A DNA stretch of 64,000 bases from Pirellulales bacterium (GTDB lineage Bacteria; Planctomycetota; Planctomycetia; Pirellulales; Thermoguttaceae). Under the pieces are notes generated by a model, which ran no database searches, had not been told where the DNA came from, and saw only the letters and a program-made list of their open reading frames with translations. The position numbers and the translations under genes were made by a program. The number at the start of each line of letters is the position of its first letter. Position 1 is the first letter of the stretch. The stretch covers positions 1 to 64,000 of the forward strand of contig JAFGDS010000151.1 of NCBI GenBank assembly GCA_016931995.1. Reading direction: 5' to 3'. Below, piece after piece: positions 10,059-59,603 of this stretch.

Positions 10059-11615
10059 CTACTTCCACTCGACCGGCTTGCCGTCGTTGCGCTGGAACAT
10101 GCGGCGAAGCGTCTCGGGGTCGGTTTCGTTGTGCAACGCGCGGGCGGAGGCGTCGCAAAACAGGACGTTGACGAATCCCCGGTACAGCCCGGCGAGGTCC
10201 TTGGCGGGGTTCGCGGGGTCGAAGGGCCAGTCGTCCGGCTTGGTCCACGGCACGGCCGCCGCGTCGCTCGCCTCGACCAGCATGATCGTGTTGGACGTTC
10301 CGTCCGTGATGTCCTGGATCTTCGTGCCCTCGGCGCCCTCGAACACCGTGCCCGGCCCAACCGGCACGAGATAGTTCGTGTAGCCGGGTTTGGCCAGCTT
10401 CGAGGCGGGTGAACGGTACGCGGCGGGCATCTTCTCCAGGAGCTTGATGTTATGCGGGCTGTCCCACGGCTCGTCCAGATGGAACTGCTCGAAGAGCCCT
10501 GACTCGTCCACGTACGGCAGGATGAGCACCCGCCAGCTCAGAAGGGGCTTGCCCGAGGCGTCGCGAACGGCCGCGGGCGGAAACGTCTTCTTCGCCTCGT
10601 GGTAGTTGTGCATCGCGATGCCGATCTGGCGGAGGTTGTTCATCGCCTGCATGCGATGGGCGCTTGCGCGGGCTTCGGTGATGGCCGGCTGGAGCACGGC
10701 CGCGATTTTGGCCAGCCCCTGGTTTTCGCGATTCAAGTCGAGCACGAGCTGGTCGCCCTGCTGCTGGGGCACGAAGACGTCGAGGAGCTCCTTGGCGTTG
10801 GGCAGTTCGCGGGCGACTTCCTTCTGTTGGGCAATGAGGGCGAAGCCGCGCCGGATGAAGCCCAAAAACGCCTCGGCCGAGGCGGCGTCTTCCGATTGGA
10901 TCACCGCCCGCAGGCCCAGGTCGGGCGCGAGCGTCACCCCGGCGCTGGCCCAGAGCACGCCGCGGGTGAGCACGCTGCTGGGTCCGCCGCCGATTTCTTC
11001 CGGCAGGGTCGGCAACAGCTCCTCGAGCACGCGGCGGCTGTACTTGGGCGGCAGGAAGACGCCCTGCGCGGCCGTGTCGCCCGCCGCGGCAAAGCCCTTT
11101 TCCAGCTCCGGCCGGGGGTCCGGCTTAAGCGCCGCGAGCCGGGCGATCGTCTGCTCGCTTCCGACCACCAGGGCCGAGCCGATCCGCTTCCGCTGGGCGA
11201 ACATCTTCTCGTCAATCTGCGCCAACAACACGGCCAGCAGGTCCTCATTGCTTCCCTCGCTCGCCGGGAAGACGAGGAACAGGAAGTTCTCCTCGGCCAG
11301 CGGACCAGCCATCGTGATCACGGCGTAGACCTCCTTCACGCCGCCGTCGAGGATACCCTGGACCACGCCCTGGCTGGCCGCGCGGGGCATGGCCGATTGA
11401 CGCCGGATTTCCTCGGGCGCGATTTTTTCCACCTCGTCGAACAGCGGATTCAGGTCCACCTTGGCTAGGTTGACCCGTACGACGGCCACGGTTTGCTCGT
11501 CAATAAACGGCGCGACCAGCTTCGCCTGCGCGGCCGGGTCGAACCCCTCGGCCCGCGCCCACGCGGGGGCGAGCAACACGGACAAGAGGCAAACGGTTTG
11601 GATCAGGGTCTTCAT
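10059..11615 (-). CDS. Exported DUF1559-domain protein without a pilin helix
   Basis: A 518-residue protein with an ordinary signal peptide (MKTLIQTVCLLSVLLAPAWA, cleavage after ARA). A long N-terminal region of about 310 residues follows that I do not recognise. The C-terminus is a DUF1559 domain: NNLRQIGIAMHNYHEAKKTF, then LLSWRVLILPYVDESGLFEQ, LDEPWDSPHN, a TSNTIMLVEA motif and a final VLFCDASARAL signature. Most DUF1559 proteins carry a prepilin leader and membrane helix; this one has neither, so it is expected to be soluble in the periplasm or secreted. It stands alone on the minus strand between fliS (convergent) and the sigma module. Confidence 0.85.
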   Translation of the reverse strand: MKTLIQTVCLLSVLLAPAWARAEGFDPAAQAKLVAPFIDEQTVAVVRVNLAKVDLNPLFDEVEKIAPEEIRRQSAMPRAASQGVVQGILDGGVKEVYAVITMAGPLAEENFLFLVFPASEGSNEDLLAVLLAQIDEKMFAQRKRIGSALVVGSEQTIARLAALKPDPRPELEKGFAAAGDTAAQGVFLPPKYSRRVLEELLPTLPEEIGGGPSSVLTRGVLWASAGVTLAPDLGLRAVIQSEDAASAEAFLGFIRRGFALIAQQKEVARELPNAKELLDVFVPQQQGDQLVLDLNRENQGLAKIAAVLQPAITEARASAHRMQAMNNLRQIGIAMHNYHEAKKTFPPAAVRDASGKPLLSWRVLILPYVDESGLFEQFHLDEPWDSPHNIKLLEKMPAAYRSPASKLAKPGYTNYLVPVGPGTVFEGAEGTKIQDITDGTSNTIMLVEASDAAAVPWTKPDDWPFDPANPAKDLAGLYRGFVNVLFCDASARALHNETDPETLRRMFQRNDGKPVEWK

Positions 11616-11841: not shown

Positions 11842-13494
11842 TTACTTTTCTCGAAACGTCACTATGTATCGCCGGACACGGTGGTCGGACCGTCCGTCGG
11901 GAAGGACCATCGACTCCAGCACGACCGTCCGACCGTCGCGACGATACGCGACGGGCTTGCCCGTGTACGGGTCGATCGGCATGGGCACTTCGGTCACCTC
12001 GTCGAGCCGGTCGGGCAGTTGGCCGTCGTGCCGGGCCGCATGGATCCGCACCGCCTCGACCGTGCGGAGCATCGCGACCTCTTGGGCGTTGCGGACCTCG
12101 GCCGACTTGGCCGCCTGGATCGCCGGTAGGAGCAGGCTGGCCACGGGCACGATTTCCCGCCGCCACGACTCGGCCTTCAGGAACTGCTCGGCCTCGTCCA
12201 TGCCCTTTTCGGCCTCCCAATACGGCAGCGGGAACCACCGGAACATCCGATCGCGGAACTCGTTAAACGTCTGGGACGTGTACAGCAGCACGACCTGGGC
12301 GACGGGCAGGGCCTCGACCTCCTCGCGGGAGCGGCCCTGGGCGATCAGGCTGTCGCGGGCACGCGGATAGCCAACCAGGGCCAGGCCGGCGACGATGACC
12401 CGCGCGTGCGATGCCTCCATTTGCCCGTTGGACGCGTACAGGGCCCATTGATTGGCCATCTGATCGAGGAACCCCCGCCAGTATTCCAGGCTGCGGGGGT
12501 CGGTCGGCACGTCGCGAAGCACCGGGAACATCATGTAAACGAGTTCCATCTCCGCCTCGAACGCGCCGCGGAGGTCGATCGGCGGATTGGGCAGGGCCGT
12601 CAGCGCCCAATACAGATTGGGACAGTCCGGTTGCTCCATGAGCGCATTGGCCTGCTCGAAGGCCATCCCGTGCATGGCGATGCCCACCAGGCCGCTGACC
12701 AGGAACGGCGCTTCGGCCACGTGCCGGCCCATGGCCAACTGGGTCTGAAGCGTCTCGACGGCCTCGTCGATCTTGCCCTCGGCGATCTCAACCCGGACTT
12801 TCAAGCACGTCAGCCGCGCCAGACTCCGCATCGACTGGATCTCGGGCAAGAGGATTCCAATAGGGTCTTTCGACTCGCGGACTGGCAGTTCCCAGTCGCA
12901 CTCGTCTCGCCGGGCCGCCATGTGGATCTCGTCCAACGTCGCCTGGTAGCCATCCAGGAGCTTCCTCGCATCCTTCAATGGGATCTTTGCCAGGGGCATT
13001 TCCAGCCAATCGCTGATGGTCTGCTGGTCCTTGTCGGAGTTCGTGTTCTGCATCATCGCGATCGCCCGATGGTAGTGCAGCGCGGCGTTGCCCGGCTTGC
13101 GGTCGAGGAAACCGGGCAGAAGCAGGTATTTGAGCGACTCGCGGGGCTCGTCGGCGGGAGAGACGGTCAGCCGGGCGGTGCGGATGTCGTCCTCGGGGGG
13201 ATTCGCGGGCGCCAGCGACGTTTGAGACGACGCCAGCGGCGCGATCAACGAGACGAACAACGCGGACAGCGCCACGAGCATGGCCACATGTGGCACCGCC
13301 GCCCTCGGCGGTGCGGACTGCCCAGCCGAGGGCGGCTGGGCCACAGGGCCGCAAGCAGCCCTTGGGGCCTCTTGTCTCCCATCCCCAATCCCCAATCCCC
13401 AATCCCTATTGGACACCCTCACCCCTGGCCCCTCTCCCGCAAGCGGGCGAGGGGAGCATGTGAAGGCACGCCTCAAGACATGCTTGGATTTCAT
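11842..13494 (-). CDS. Exported protein, third gene of sigma module copy 1
   Basis: Paralogue of the protein at 58068-59603. Shared landmarks, in order: KYLLLPGFLDRKPGNAALHY, DECDW, CPNLYWALTALPNPP, LLYTSQTFNEFRDR, and a C-terminal segment (HAARHDGQLP...VPMPIDPYTGKPVAY) resembling the loop of type II secretion pseudopilins. The family is unnamed to me; helix-rich and TPR-like by eye. ATG 13494 overlaps the preceding stop (ATGA) and has GGAG upstream, so it is the coupled start. It begins MKSKHVLRRA, a good signal-peptide n-region, but about 60 residues encoded by dispersed repeats intervene before the hydrophobic core (LVALSALFVSLIAPLASS). An internal ATG at 13281 could start just before the core but lacks positive charges. 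Confidence 0.75.
   Translation of the reverse strand: MKSKHVLRRAFTCSPRPLAGEGPGVRVSNRDWGLGIGDGRQEAPRAACGPVAQPPSAGQSAPPRAAVPHVAMLVALSALFVSLIAPLASSQTSLAPANPPEDDIRTARLTVSPADEPRESLKYLLLPGFLDRKPGNAALHYHRAIAMMQNTNSDKDQQTISDWLEMPLAKIPLKDARKLLDGYQATLDEIHMAARRDECDWELPVRESKDPIGILLPEIQSMRSLARLTCLKVRVEIAEGKIDEAVETLQTQLAMGRHVAEAPFLVSGLVGIAMHGMAFEQANALMEQPDCPNLYWALTALPNPPIDLRGAFEAEMELVYMMFPVLRDVPTDPRSLEYWRGFLDQMANQWALYASNGQMEASHARVIVAGLALVGYPRARDSLIAQGRSREEVEALPVAQVVLLYTSQTFNEFRDRMFRWFPLPYWEAEKGMDEAEQFLKAESWRREIVPVASLLLPAIQAAKSAEVRNAQEVAMLRTVEAVRIHAARHDGQLPDRLDEVTEVPMPIDPYTGKPVAYRRDGRTVVLESMVLPDGRSDHRVRRYIVTFREK
13282..13470. repeat. Three dispersed repeats inside the 5' part of a gene
   Basis: Within the coding frame of the preceding entry lie, in + order: an inverted pair of the GCCGCCCTCGGC family (13288-13345), four tandem copies of ATCCCCA-type heptamers (13381-13409), and a CCCTCTCCCGC...GCGAGGGGAG hairpin (13428-13456). 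All three families also occur between genes elsewhere in the window. The frame stays open through all of them. Confidence 0.85.
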
Positions 13495-14060
13495 AATGAC
13501 TTCTCCATCAAGAACCTCTGCCAGTCGCCTGAGCGGCGGGGACTGGCGGACGGGGCAGGTGAATCGGACGCGGGCGCCGCGGGCAGGGCGTCCACGCCGC
13601 ACCGCAGCACGTAGTCGCGAAACCGTGGATAAGGAAGCCTGCGAACCTCCGCGGCCGTGAGCCACTGGGGCGTGGGCGCTACCGAGGCCAGCACCGCCGA
13701 CTCGATCGACCAGCCCGGCGGCGCCGTGCGCCGCGGCGCTTCGCGCTCGGGCACGGCCGGCGCGACGGGCGCTGCGTCCTCGGTCGCCGGCGCGGCGGTG
13801 GTGACGGACGTGGGCAGGTAGACGATCCGATCGATGGTCTGGGGCTCGGGCCGCACGGCCAGCATCACGGCCAACGTGGCGGCCACGACACTCATGCCGG
13901 CGAAGGCCGCCGGCCACGCCCGCGAACGCCGCGCGGCCGACGCCTTTCCAGCCAGGTACATCACCCGGCCCGCGTCGAGCCGATCCGCCCGGGGCACCAG
14001 CGCGGCCAGCTCGGCCTCGAATGCCTTCAACTCGCTCGGGAGGTCTTCTTCTTGGGACAT
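13491..14060 (-). CDS. Small single-pass membrane protein, candidate anti-sigma factor, module copy 1
   Basis: A 189-residue protein with a cytoplasmic N-terminal part (residues 1-50), one membrane helix (AFAGMSVVAATLAVMLAV), then an exported Pro/Ala-rich part. It is paralogous to the protein at 57368-57844: both share a pre-membrane motif Y-x-AG-x-ASA-x-RRSRA, a post-membrane motif (D/E)RIV(Y/F), and a C-terminal G(V/I)DALP. The position directly after an ECF sigma gene, with a 34-base overlap, and the one-helix topology suggest an anti-sigma factor, but the usual zinc anti-sigma motif (H-x3-C-x2-C) is absent. Its stop overlaps the start of the third gene. Anti-sigma function is inferred from context. 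Confidence 0.75.
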   Translation of the reverse strand: MSQEEDLPSELKAFEAELAALVPRADRLDAGRVMYLAGKASAARRSRAWPAAFAGMSVVAATLAVMLAVRPEPQTIDRIVYLPTSVTTAAPATEDAAPVAPAVPEREAPRRTAPPGWSIESAVLASVAPTPQWLTAAEVRRLPYPRFRDYVLRCGVDALPAAPASDSPAPSASPRRSGDWQRFLMEKSL

Positions 14061-14542
14061 GGCACACCTAGCCTTTCTCGCAGCGCGGCCAATGCGGATT
14101 GATAACACCGCGCGGCCGTGCTCGACGACGTGCCGGTCAGTTCGGCGATCTGGGTGAACGACAACCCACCCCAAAGCCGGGCGACCAGCGTTTCACGTTC
14201 TTCAGGGGGAAGCCCGGCGAGCGCCGCCGTGGCCGCGCCGGCGTCGAGGGCCAGCTCGGCGCTCGGCTCGAACCACGGTTCTTCGCGCCACGCGACGGCG
14301 GCTTCGCGGCGGCGCCGTCGGCCCGCGCTGCGGCTCCGGCTGATCGCCCGGTTCCGAACGGCGCGATACAGCCAGCCCACCACGTTGGTCGGCGGGGTCG
14401 GCTGGCGAACCAGTTCGACCAGGGCCTCTTGGACCACGTCCTCCGGTGAATCGGTCCAGCCGCGGGCGTAGAGCACCAGCGGCCGGCCGTGCCGGGCCAA
14501 TAGGGCCTCGATCAATTCGGGTTCCAGACCGTTTGGGCTCAT
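14027..14542 (-). CDS. ECF-type RNA polymerase sigma factor, module copy 1
   Basis: A 171-residue sigma-70 family protein with only regions 2 and 4. Region 2 includes DSPEDVVQEALVEL and VVGWLYRAVRNRAI; region 4 includes LPPEERETLVARLWGGLSF and TQIAELTGTSSSTAARCYQS, the helix-turn-helix that reads the -35 element. It directs RNA polymerase to a small set of promoters, probably including its own. It overlaps the next gene by 34 bases, so synthesis of the two is coupled. Compared with the paralogue at 56868 the region 2 and 4 motifs are alike (CPEDVVQEALVELG; RIWGGLTFQQIA). ATG 14542 is preferred; the frame opens at 14758 but runs through a repeat. Confidence 0.9.
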   Translation of the reverse strand: MSPNGLEPELIEALLARHGRPLVLYARGWTDSPEDVVQEALVELVRQPTPPTNVVGWLYRAVRNRAISRSRSAGRRRRREAAVAWREEPWFEPSAELALDAGAATAALAGLPPEERETLVARLWGGLSFTQIAELTGTSSSTAARCYQSALAALRERLGVPCPKKKTSRAS

Positions 14543-14621
14543 CCGCGGCGTCTCGTCGGGGCTTCCCTCAGTATAGACGCCAGCCAGGCCCGGATGACCC
14601 AAAAATCCGCCAGTGGGGGGG

Positions 14622-14747
14622 CCAGGTGCCATGTCCACGCTCGCGTGGTCATGGCACCCGGGCCAGGGCATGGCGTCTCGCGGTGACGCACACCGGCGAA
14701 GCCAGTGACACACGGCCGATTCTTGTTGCGAAGCCGCAAGCGGCTGC
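14622..14747. repeat. Two hairpin repeats upstream of the sigma gene
   Basis: A hairpin built on GGTGCCATGTCCACGC and its complement GCGTGGTCATGGCACC (14625-14658), also seen twice near 57960-58033, and an AAGCCGCAAGCGGCT hairpin (14730-14745). The 212-base gap holds no gene. Confidence 0.7.
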
Positions 14748-29585: not shown

Positions 29586-29701
29586 CCCCAACCCCCAGTC
29601 CCTAGCCCCCAGCCCCCAGCCCCCAGCCCCCAGTCCCCAGTCCCTAATCCCTAATCCCTAATCCCTAATCCCTAATCCCTAAATTCCCAGCCCCCAATCC
29701 C
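29586..29701. repeat. Tandem heptamers CCCCCAG then TCCCTAA
   Basis: About five copies of CCCCCAG/CCCCAGT units run into six copies of TCCCTAA, ending 19 bases before the gnd ATG. Similar units occur at 13381 and 45268. They are not a CRISPR array, since there are no spacers. Confidence 0.9.
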
Positions 29702-29719
29702 TCACCGGAGCACATAATC

Positions 29720-31159
29720 ATGTCTGACACATGCGATTTCGGCCTGATCGGTCTGGCCGTGATGGGCGAGAATCTGGCGCTGAACGTCGAGAGCCGCGGC
29801 TACCGCGTCGCGGTGTTCAACCGAACGACGAGCAAGGTGGACGAATTCATGGCCGGTCGGGCCCAGGGCAAGCAGTTCGTCGGGGCGCATTCGCTCGAGG
29901 AGCTGGTCGGAAGCCTGGCCGCGCCACGCAAGGTGATGCTCATGGTCAAGGCCGGTCCCGCGGTCGATGAGTTCATCGAGAAGCTCATTCCGCTGCTCTC
30001 GCCCGGCGACGTGATTATCGACGGCGGCAACACGCACTTCAGCGAGACCGAGCGGCGCACGAAGTACGTCGAATCGAAGGGCCTGCTCTACATCGGCACG
30101 GGCGTGTCCGGCGGCGAGGAAGGCGCGCTCAAGGGCCCCAGCATCATGCCCGGCGGAAGCGAAAGGGCCTGGCCCCTGGTCAAGGACGTCTTCCAAGCCA
30201 TCTCGGCCAAGGTCGGTCCGAAGGGCGATATTCCGTGTTGCGAGTGGGTTGGCCCGCGCGGGGCCGGCCACTACGTCAAGATGGTTCACAACGGCATCGA
30301 ATACGGCGACATGCAGTTGATCTGCGAGGCCTACTGGATGCTCAAGCAGGCGTTGGGCCTCTCGAACGCCGAGCTGTACGACGTCTTCGCCGAGTGGAAC
30401 CGCGGCGAACTGGACAGCTACCTGATCGAGATCACCCGCGACATCTTCAGCGTCAAGGACCCGGACACGGGCAAGGACCTGGTCGATTTGATTCTCGACA
30501 CGGCGGGCGCGAAGGGGACGGGCAAGTGGATGAGCCAGTTGGCCCTGGATCTCGGCGTGCCCAGCACGCTGGTGACGGAGGCCGTCTACGCCCGGTGTCT
30601 CTCGGCGATGAAGGACGCCCGCGTGCGGGCGAGTAAGCGCCTGACCGGCCCGTCCGGCGCGTACCAGGGCGACCGGAAGGCGTTTGTCGAGAAGGTCCGC
30701 CAGGCCCTGTACGCCTCGAAGATTTGCAGCTACGCCCAGGGTTACGTCCAGATGCAAGCGGCCGCCAGGGAGCACGACTGGCCTCTGAAGTTTGGGCCGA
30801 TCGCCCTGCTGTGGCGCGGCGGGTGCATCATCCGCGCGACGTTCCTGGAACGGATCAAGGAAGCGTTCGACGCCGATCCGAAGCTGGAGAACCTGCTTTT
30901 GGCGCCGTATTTCAAGGACGCGGTCGAAAAGGCCCAGCCCGCGTGGCGCGAGGTCGTGGTCGCGGCCGTCCAGCTTGGCATTCCCGTGCCCGCGTTTGCG
31001 GCCGCGTTGGCCTACTACGACGGCTACCGCAGCGAGCGGCTGCCAGCCAACCTGCTGCAAGCCCAACGCGACTACTTCGGCGCGCACACGTACAACCGCG
31101 TGGACAAAGAGGGCACGTTCCACAGCGAATGGCTGCAGTTGCGCAAGAAGCCCGTGTAG
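29720..31159 (+). CDS. gnd: 6-phosphogluconate dehydrogenase, decarboxylating
   Basis: Oxidises 6-phosphogluconate to ribulose 5-phosphate and CO2 with NADP+ in the pentose phosphate pathway. The 479-residue protein has the nucleotide fold GLIGLAVMGENLALN with FNRTTSKVDEF, the family signature IGTGVSGGEEGALKGPSIMPGG (split here as IGTGVSGGEEGAL and KGPSIMPGG), the active-site VKMVHNGIEYGDMQLI, and a C-terminal GTFHSEW tail. Length is the usual 470-480 of the long form. The stop codon TAG lies within the first base pairs of an inverted repeat that fills the space downstream. The ATG has no strong ribosome site because tandem repeats abut it. Confidence 0.97.
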   Translation: MSDTCDFGLIGLAVMGENLALNVESRGYRVAVFNRTTSKVDEFMAGRAQGKQFVGAHSLEELVGSLAAPRKVMLMVKAGPAVDEFIEKLIPLLSPGDVIIDGGNTHFSETERRTKYVESKGLLYIGTGVSGGEEGALKGPSIMPGGSERAWPLVKDVFQAISAKVGPKGDIPCCEWVGPRGAGHYVKMVHNGIEYGDMQLICEAYWMLKQALGLSNAELYDVFAEWNRGELDSYLIEITRDIFSVKDPDTGKDLVDLILDTAGAKGTGKWMSQLALDLGVPSTLVTEAVYARCLSAMKDARVRASKRLTGPSGAYQGDRKAFVEKVRQALYASKICSYAQGYVQMQAAAREHDWPLKFGPIALLWRGGCIIRATFLERIKEAFDADPKLENLLLAPYFKDAVEKAQPAWREVVVAAVQLGIPVPAFAAALAYYDGYRSERLPANLLQAQRDYFGAHTYNRVDKEGTFHSEWLQLRKKPV

Positions 31160-57844: not shown

Positions 57845-57867
57845 GGCAGCCGGGAGAGCCGTTTCCC

Positions 57868-58033
57868 GTCATTCTGAGCGCAGCGAAGAATCTCTTCGGA
57901 CGCGTCACGGAGATCCTCCGCTTCGCTCAGGATGACCAAATTGCCGGCCGCCATGGTCGGGCGCCATGGCCACGCTTGCGTGGCCATGCGCGGCCCGAGA
58001 GAACATGCCCACGCAAGCGTGGGCATGGCACCC
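57868..58033. repeat. Two inverted repeats between the second and third module genes
   Basis: CATTCTGAGCGCAGCGAAGA (57870) faces CTCCGCTTCGCTCAGGATGA (57916). Next GCCATGGCCACGCTTGCGTG (57963) faces ATGCCCACGCAAGCGTGGGC (58004). They occupy the only gap inside this module. Confidence 0.85.
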
Positions 58034-58067
58034 AACACGGAACCCCTTCCGAATGGAGGATACTGCC

Positions 58068-59603
58068 ATGCGTTATCTCCTCACACTATGTTCTATCGCG
58101 ATGGTCTTGTTCTGTGTTGCGCCGGCTCGGGGAGACGACGCGGCAAAGCCGCCCTCGGAGGCGTCGCCCCCCGCGCCCACGCGGGTGGACCTCGCGCTCC
58201 ATCCGGCCGAGCCGCCGGCCGCGGCGCTAAAGTATCGCCTGACGCCCGACTACCTGGAACAAACGCCCGGCAACGCGGCGACGTTGTACTTGCGCTTCAC
58301 CATGCGGTTTCACGATCAATGGGCCCGCGCGATGGGCATGACCATGGACAATCCGGAGTCGCAGAATCGTTTTATGCAATTGAGCAACCAGATGGAGGTG
58401 TGGCTGCGTCAACCGCCGTCGGAGTTGCCTTGCGACGAGGTGGAGCAATTCCTGTCCCACTTCGACCGTTCGTTGGACTACGCCCAGGCGGCCTCGCGCC
58501 GCGTCGATTGCGACTGGGGACATCTCCTACGAGAAAGCGGCAACGACGTGCTGAGCGTCGAGATTTACGAATTCGACGCATTGCACGGGTTGGACCGCAT
58601 CATCGCGCTTAAGGCTCGCCTTCGCGTGGCCAAAGGCGATTTCGACGGCGCGTGCTCGTGGCTACGAACGGCATACTGCCACGCGAGACACCGAAGCATG
58701 GCGCCGTTCCCCGTGAACAAGATATTCGGCATGCAGTTGGTTGGTCGCGTGGCCGATCAACTGGAAGCAATGTCGCAACAGCCTGGCGCGCCCAATCTTT
58801 ATTGGACCGTCGCGGCCCTCCCGCGGCCGCCCGTCAACATTGAGGACGAGATTGAACTCGATGCGTCCATGCTCTACATCGAGTATCCTCAATTCCAGGA
58901 GGCTCGCCGCACCGGCCTCACGGCGCGTCAGGCGCAGGACCTTGTCGACCGAGTCATCGCGCGCGTCCGCAAACGGCAAACCTTCATGTCCCATCCGGAG
59001 GCCGAGACGAAGGCGTTCGAGGATTGGACTGACGGGCTCGATCCTGCAGAGTTCGTCAACCGGAACTACGCGGAAGCCAGCAAGGGCTTAGCGGCGGCCG
59101 GGCGCAACGAACAGGAAATCACCACAATGCCGGCGGCGCAGGCCGTGTTGCTGTACACGGCGATGCGGTACGACCAAGCTCGGGACGCCGATCAGAAGTG
59201 GATCTATGTACCGTATTGGCAAGCCGAGAAGCAGGCCGAGACCGAAGAGAAACGCCTGGCCGAAGAGATCAGGAAGTCGGAACCGCTGCGCCTGGTGTGT
59301 GGCTTGCTGCCGAATTCCCGAATCCTCCACTACTACCTTGCCCACACCGAGCGTCGCCTGGCCACGCTTCAAGTAATCGAGGCGATCCGGTTCCACGCGG
59401 CCAAGCACGACGGCAAGCTACCGCCGAGCCTGGAGGCGATCACGGAAGTGCCCGTGCCGATCAATCCGGTGACCGGCCGGGCGTTTCCGTATCAGCTTGA
59501 CGGCGACGTGGCGATCCTCAAGGCCGACGGCGGGCCGGCCAAGCACGCGGCGGACCAACGCGAGTACCACATCCGCATCGCGCCGCGCCGCGGGATTCGT
59601 TGA
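58068..59603 (+). CDS. Exported protein, third gene of sigma module copy 2
   Basis: A 511-residue protein, paralogue of that at 11842-13494. It has a clean signal peptide (MRYLLTLCSIAMVLFCVAPA), then KYRLTPDYLEQTPGNAATLY, VDCDW, APNLYWTVAALPRPPV, VLLYTAMRYDQARD, and a C-terminal HAAKHDGKLPPSLEAI and VPVPINPVTGRAFPY segment like the C-terminal loop of GspG-type pseudopilins. The protein is mostly helical by eye. No enzymatic motif was found. AATGGAGG lies before the ATG. It is expected to act in the periplasm or envelope; the activity is unknown. Conserved neighbourhood with sigma and candidate anti-sigma genes makes it a probable signal sensor or output. Confidence 0.75.
   Translation: MRYLLTLCSIAMVLFCVAPARGDDAAKPPSEASPPAPTRVDLALHPAEPPAAALKYRLTPDYLEQTPGNAATLYLRFTMRFHDQWARAMGMTMDNPESQNRFMQLSNQMEVWLRQPPSELPCDEVEQFLSHFDRSLDYAQAASRRVDCDWGHLLRESGNDVLSVEIYEFDALHGLDRIIALKARLRVAKGDFDGACSWLRTAYCHARHRSMAPFPVNKIFGMQLVGRVADQLEAMSQQPGAPNLYWTVAALPRPPVNIEDEIELDASMLYIEYPQFQEARRTGLTARQAQDLVDRVIARVRKRQTFMSHPEAETKAFEDWTDGLDPAEFVNRNYAEASKGLAAAGRNEQEITTMPAAQAVLLYTAMRYDQARDADQKWIYVPYWQAEKQAETEEKRLAEEIRKSEPLRLVCGLLPNSRILHYYLAHTERRLATLQVIEAIRFHAAKHDGKLPPSLEAITEVPVPINPVTGRAFPYQLDGDVAILKADGGPAKHAADQREYHIRIAPRRGIR

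Follow-up and report, generated by a model that had tools for sequence, protein, structure and literature searches.

Rickettsia palindromic elements (RPEs) are small dispersed elements that are translated within their host proteins with the frame preserved, and the sections of the RPE work drawn on here describe them as encoding a conserved peptide and sitting in unrelated metabolic genes (PMC10969869). REP palindromes with GTAG/CGTC tags are present in tens to hundreds of copies, mostly intergenic with some in ORFs, and planctomycetes are included. The sections of the REP study drawn on suspect start misannotation behind N-terminal REPs, and in them signal peptide, leader, secreted and pilin have 0 occurrences (PMC3733652). 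REPs within genes and RPEs are already known. That leaders are hit recurrently seems to be new; searches of one open-access library turned up no description of such repeats in signal or prepilin leader peptides, which does not prove absence. The signal extension of autotransporters is a conserved region. Their long signal sequences, as portrayed in the part of the source used, place an extended n-region ahead of an ordinary core (PMC2805444).

The repeats described here resemble RPEs by in-frame insertion inside genes, and resemble REPs as hairpin repeats lying mostly between genes and partly within ORFs (PMC3733652). However, in comparison with RPEs as so described, several families of ~20-110 bp are involved, read in differing frames and strands and recurring in cleaved leaders. 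The doubt about misannotation in the REP sections cited (PMC3733652) is removed by prepilin leaders for 7 genes here. The likeness to autotransporters lies in the extended n-region, but the extension here is lineage-specific repeat DNA and is not conserved among orthologues.

Layout of the module and its third gene

The window analysed was a stretch of 64,000 nucleotides of a Pirellulales bacterium (assembly GCA_016931995.1, contig JAFGDS010000151.1, positions 1 to 64,000). It carries two copies of a module, and the features needed below are as follows.

14027..14671 (called extent), minus strand: ECF sigma-70 factor gene, first gene of the module (Pfam Sigma70_r4_2, r4 and r2 above cut-off)
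13491..14060, minus strand: second gene, putative anti-sigma-like protein (from translation; role assigned by position; no match in a Pfam search)
13491..13494, minus strand: ATGA stop/start overlap in the sequence, probable ancestral start of the third gene
11842..13494, minus strand: third gene, 550 codons, predicted exported protein of unknown family with in-frame repeat insert
13465..13494, minus strand: n-region MKSKHVLRRA (translation)
13416..13456, minus strand: repeat A, hairpin CCCTCGCCCGCTTGCGGGAGAGGGG plus tail, translated as PRPLAGEGPGVRV (locus matches; genome count)
13381..13407, minus strand: repeat B, 7-bp array GGGGATT, translated as DWGLGIGD
13285..13350, minus strand: repeat C, twin hairpin, translated as VAQPPSAGQSAPPRAAVPH
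GTG 13296 and GTG 13287, minus strand: possible starts just ahead of ATG 13281
13222..13281, minus strand: signal peptide, hydrophobic core and c-region, starting at internal ATG 13281 (translation; helix 69-87 in the model)
10059..11615, minus strand: fourth gene, DUF1559 protein (Pfam PF07596, E 2.6e-36)
57867..58035, plus strand: dispersed repeats at the equivalent junction, outside the paralogue gene
58068..59603, plus strand: paralogue with intact signal peptide (33% identity, E 3e-70)

The third gene's ATG at 13494 shares bases with the anti-sigma stop codon, TGA. An earlier note on this DNA had placed the hydrophobic core about 72 residues behind the n-region, and translation from ATG 13494 indeed put the core MLVALSALFVSLIAPLASS at codon 72 (13281), with ~61 codons in between that are mostly copies of repeats A, B and C. 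Its further claim, that three repeat families make up this DNA, agreed with our matches genome-wide: ~130 of the ~183 bp are repeat and the rest is linker, as judged by which bases match 167 loci fetched from the same genome, which partly overlap. Positions ~13456-13416 matched 49-62 of these loci, 13406-13381 matched 35-36 and 13350-13285 up to 32, while the bases sampled at 13412, at 13372-13356 and on either flank (above 13460, below 13284) matched none of the 167. The paralogue opens directly with its signal peptide MRYLLTLCSIAMVLFCVAPARG, and in module copy 2 much of 57867-58035, which lies outside that gene, is taken up by repeats, both as the note had said.

By parting charge from core, the insert of ~61 residues could have abolished export and left the third gene heading for decay. 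This is improbable, however, as the frame stays open over 550 codons without a stop, mature residues are conserved, the codon score is good, and R64, encoded by repeat C, lies only 8 residues ahead of the core. In an AlphaFold2 model built with 12 sequences, residues 1-100 scored a pLDDT of about 30 and included a helix at 69-87, the insert was modelled without structure (~30), and the rest of the protein was mostly at pLDDT 80-97. For the function of this protein, Pfam gave no match and PDB no fold match at E<=0.001.

The genome is a draft of 153 contigs (5.43 Mb) and some repeat copies lie at contig ends, so that the insert might be an assembly artefact at repeats. But the site lies 13 kb within a 72.6-kb contig and the pattern returns in many genes and in other genomes, which makes an artefact very improbable.

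Repeat families and orthologues of the third gene

Repeat A (CCCTCTCCCGCNNGCGGG) had 110 exact matches in the 5.43-Mb genome (reversed-pattern control, 0), repeat B (AATCCCC 7-mers, <=1 mismatch) 101 (control 0) and repeat C (<=2 mismatches) 122 (control 36). When repeat A was counted with 3 mismatches in the window only, it was no commoner than by chance (18 versus 19.4); the case for repeat A therefore rests on the exact copy and the genome count. Copies of repeat C in L136, L089 and L125 share 92-97% identity over 60-72 bp with 13285..13350, and its RNA fold reached -65 kcal/mol (z -3.8). Our survey around the repeats covered 156 sites in 127 clusters, 124 of them fetched besides the window, with 657,900 bases including the window. 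Of the 143 distinct A/B/C clusters, 84 fell in gaps separating called genes, 40 stood 5' of a called gene in open frame, 11 were intragenic and 8 at edges; the open-frame clusters were mostly uninformative because an ordinary start follows the repeat. As in REPs, A, B and C are short palindromic units with many dispersed, mainly intergenic copies, although repeat B is not palindromic but an array of 7-bp units. An AATCCCT 7-mer array was also seen in the window at 29632-29680, just upstream of a gene called near 29720.

Across four leaders, repeat A reads in three different frames, as PRPLAGEG or PLPLAGEG, as PLSRLR and as PSPACGRG. The unit is therefore the DNA and not a conserved peptide, and in this repeat A departs from the RPE pattern. 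Taken together, six units had 35/36 frames open versus a shuffled mean of 29.3, and 5/1000 shuffles were as high, but these units were hand-chosen and palindromic, so their frames are not independent. There were 7 matches to Y1_Tnp in the genome (G000:C34:13606-13947, C119:48531, C13:5995, C109:20668, C45:414, C134:21608 and C1:18961), and these transposases are candidate movers of some repeats. CATGCTC occurs on both sides of the insert, 178 bp apart by hand count. Because this spacing is not a multiple of 3 and would break the frame, one insertion event duplicating a 7-bp target was not supported.

The third gene had a match in 41 of 60 relatives. Apart from the third gene itself, the repeat segment was absent from all 26 orthologue loci examined, most of which open with a short signal peptide, e.g. 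MKRILIGIVVTAAVLAAGPARAQV; a weak match in G040:C211, apart from these 26, aligned from residue 38 but across 2 stops. This agreed with the proposal in the earlier note that an insertion had split n-region from core without breaking the frame; conservation of the segment as protein, which would have spoken for an old part of the protein, was found in 0/26. Long bacterial signal sequences do exist, as far as the part of PMC2805444 used here describes them, and the segment could on that ground be an old functional extension like those of autotransporters. That is hardly conceivable and we rejected it, because the segment is absent from the 26 orthologues, and its DNA matches repeats that read elsewhere in other frames.

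In five of the 26 orthologues (L033, L037, L043, L045, L056) the ATGA overlap with the anti-sigma stop recurred. ATG 13494 and its n-region are therefore probably ancestral. Furthermore, orthologue L037 in G018 carries an independent insertion: MKPRR is followed by a different palindromic element in frame and then by LVAALVLALVPLAGA. In G018 this element, which by eye starts with CGTAGGG, gave 33 matches at E<=1, a figure that includes the element and its own arms; most were pieces of 24-35 bp on many contigs. By eye, such elements lie just ahead of the start codon in L032 and L035 instead. Since an unrelated dispersed repeat stands in frame at the same place in G018, the same junction has been struck repeatedly, twice within the leader.

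Prepilin and Sec-type leaders

A type IV prepilin must retain the glycine before its cleavage site. TIGR02532 gave 60 matches in the genome, 58 of them above cut-off, and the N-termini of all 60 were inspected. Most, chiefly of the stand-alone type, have a leader without repeats. In seven, an in-frame repeat is followed by no ATG, GTG or TTG up to the cleavage glycine:

C46:101132: repeat A in the leader
C97:7081: degenerate repeat H in the leader (by eye)
C116:12610: repeat E in the leader
C116:13760: repeat B in the leader
C116:15202: repeat E in the leader
C150:17765: repeat A variant plus GGGACTGTCCC type, leader of 101 residues
C136:26572: repeat A variant in the leader

Three of these seven starts overlap the upstream stop. 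Because no start codon lies between repeat and cleavage glycine, as read from the DNA the repeat must be translated in these seven genes, or the gene is dead. The standing doubt, whether N-terminal repeats are translated or misannotated, gets a clean answer here, since no prepilin can do without its cleavage glycine. Possible starts inside the repeat were found at C46:101827 (array of D), C97:6341, GspK-like L135 2420 and L151 5462. A GTGA-coupled prepilin frame at L093:2978-3245 (G000:C46) runs through several repeat D units (VPLALPVPWRDVC...) and then reaches RRG/FTLLEL, and at C8:4589, C66:82194 and C112:70418 the repeat is near a prepilin but out of frame.

We traced the GspK-like pseudopilin gene of C97 in 61 genomes, with matches in 44, and in 80 named loci retained from 344; its relatives in named records belonged to Pirellulales, Thermoguttaceae and Pirellulaceae MAGs. 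The start overlapped the upstream stop in 52 of 78 loci, and in these 52 the leaders measured 3-87 residues (median 17.5). The leader in G013 (89 residues counted to +2) holds at least 3 dispersed elements, and that in G080 (71 residues) a 110-bp element with dozens of copies among the matches listed. For these two genomes 40 each of 335 and 359 first-look candidates, respectively, were scored, with 82-94% identity over ~80-130 bp. The leader in G018 is short, coupled and without insert (MKRRG/MVL). Copy number was checked for G018, G013 and G080, and the leader repeats of L230, L235, L238 and L239 were seen by eye; in L229 (G013) an ATG inside the repeat could be the start, so this is not a forced case. 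One orthologous pseudopilin gene has different dispersed repeats in its leader by genome, and none in others. Inverted-repeat content was tried on the 17 coupled GspK-like leaders of at least 25 residues: 3 beat all 30 shuffles (L264, L289, L323), L301, L275, L307 and L305 were equalled by 1-3 shuffles, and the remaining 10 gave nothing clear. The outcome of this test was thus mixed.

Sec-type leaders of the same genome contained such repeats as well. In a glycosidase-like gene (L165/L342), MKALTKIL is followed by repeats A and H and then by PLRVMALIVALIMAGLSS, and the repeats were absent from the seven orthologues examined (L343-L349). In L096 (MTGSPHPR-PLSRRR-AGGALGLVLLI) the arginines of the n-region are supplied by repeat A itself. 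L163 has start codons inside the repeat, so translation through it is not forced.

Start of the third gene and proposed origin of the insert

Use of ATG 13494 as the start of the third gene is likely from the layout of the junction: the coupling persists, the reading frame runs open and unshifted from this ATG, and the n-region is undamaged. A start at the 3' edge of repeat C (GTG 13296, GTG 13287 or ATG 13281), with the repeats an untranslated junction and the old start a relic, would speak against this. Anti-Shine-Dalgarno energies were -6.4 at 13494, -7.1 at 13287 and -6.3 at 13281; the two internal sites thus match or exceed 13494, and AGGG in the loop of repeat C stands 5 nt before GTG 13296. 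Moreover, many N-terminal REPs are held to be misannotated starts in the REP sections consulted (PMC3733652). However, the internal candidates lie in or beside the -65 kcal/mol fold, and such a start implies a signal peptide without lysine or arginine, as neither occurs between the internal starts and the core. We regard an internal start as unlikely, though the least so of the rival readings. Strength of the ribosome site was dropped as an arbiter, since the energies fail to discriminate 13494, 13287 and 13281.

The probable reading, in our judgement, is that REP-like elements land at packed, coupled junctions and persist if they are in frame in a cleaved leader, and that the third gene restarts at 13494 and exports its product. 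Short dispersed REP-like repeats would have piled up, probably stepwise, right after the coupled ATGA start. With hardly any stop codon in any of their frames, and a fitting net length, these elements would have left the reading frame intact. Ribosomes ending the anti-sigma gene would restart at ATG 13494 and translate across the repeats, and the product would have a signal peptide with an n-region of ~70 residues whose core still engages the export machinery. The mature protein would be unchanged because the entire leader is removed. More generally, elements copying into packed operons would hit junctions without spacer; landing in a gene body would kill the gene, whereas in-frame landing in a cleaved leader would cost little. 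Cleaved leaders, of both Sec and prepilin type, at packed, coupled junctions may thus be tolerant landing sites. The sequences themselves show the insert and its frame, its absence from the orthologues examined, the independent insertions at that place in a relative and the prepilin leaders without a start behind the repeat; we infer that translation restarts at 13494, that export works and that tolerance is the cause.

A possible rule emerges for the places that selfish repeats can occupy in packed operons. Gene finders may set starts wrongly and miss signal peptides in these genomes, which also offer natural tests of the maximum length of a signal peptide n-region or a prepilin leader.

Only tentatively do we extend this to leaders as a genome-wide refuge for intragenic repeats in Pirellulales. 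As the sole discarded spacer at overlapping junctions, they would favour repeat families open in nearly all six frames, and some repeats may now provide n-region charge or the start codon (L096). Against the probable reading given above, repeat-bearing junctions genome-wide had in-frame coupled starts in 9 of 57 cases before leader-type genes and in 5 of 61 before others (Fisher p 0.26), which is no significant excess for leaders; at least one of the 'leader' genes (L107 1561, ABC-transporter-like) is misclassified. A frame open back to the upstream stop was equally common (23/57 versus 24/61). Counting ATG only, a choice made after seeing the data, gave 6/57 for leader-type genes and 0/61 for others (p 0.011).

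Tolerance is not confined to leaders, as other proteins have in-frame repeats in their loops, linkers and tails. A membrane protein gene (M56-like by eye) at L170:2501-2722 (G000:C137) has a linker of two copies of repeat A and GGGGACAGTCCCC-type repeats in frame, and A, C or both stand in frame in apparent interdomain linkers or loops at L139:3237-3260, L162:2502-2523, L164:2501-2524 and L079:2502-2608. Because of these cases, tolerance belongs to flexible segments at large, of which leaders are the clearest class. At L106:2501-2640 (G000:C66), repeat A precedes a gene whose product has an N-terminal membrane helix; the open frame there offers no ATG, GTG or TTG ahead of the helix.
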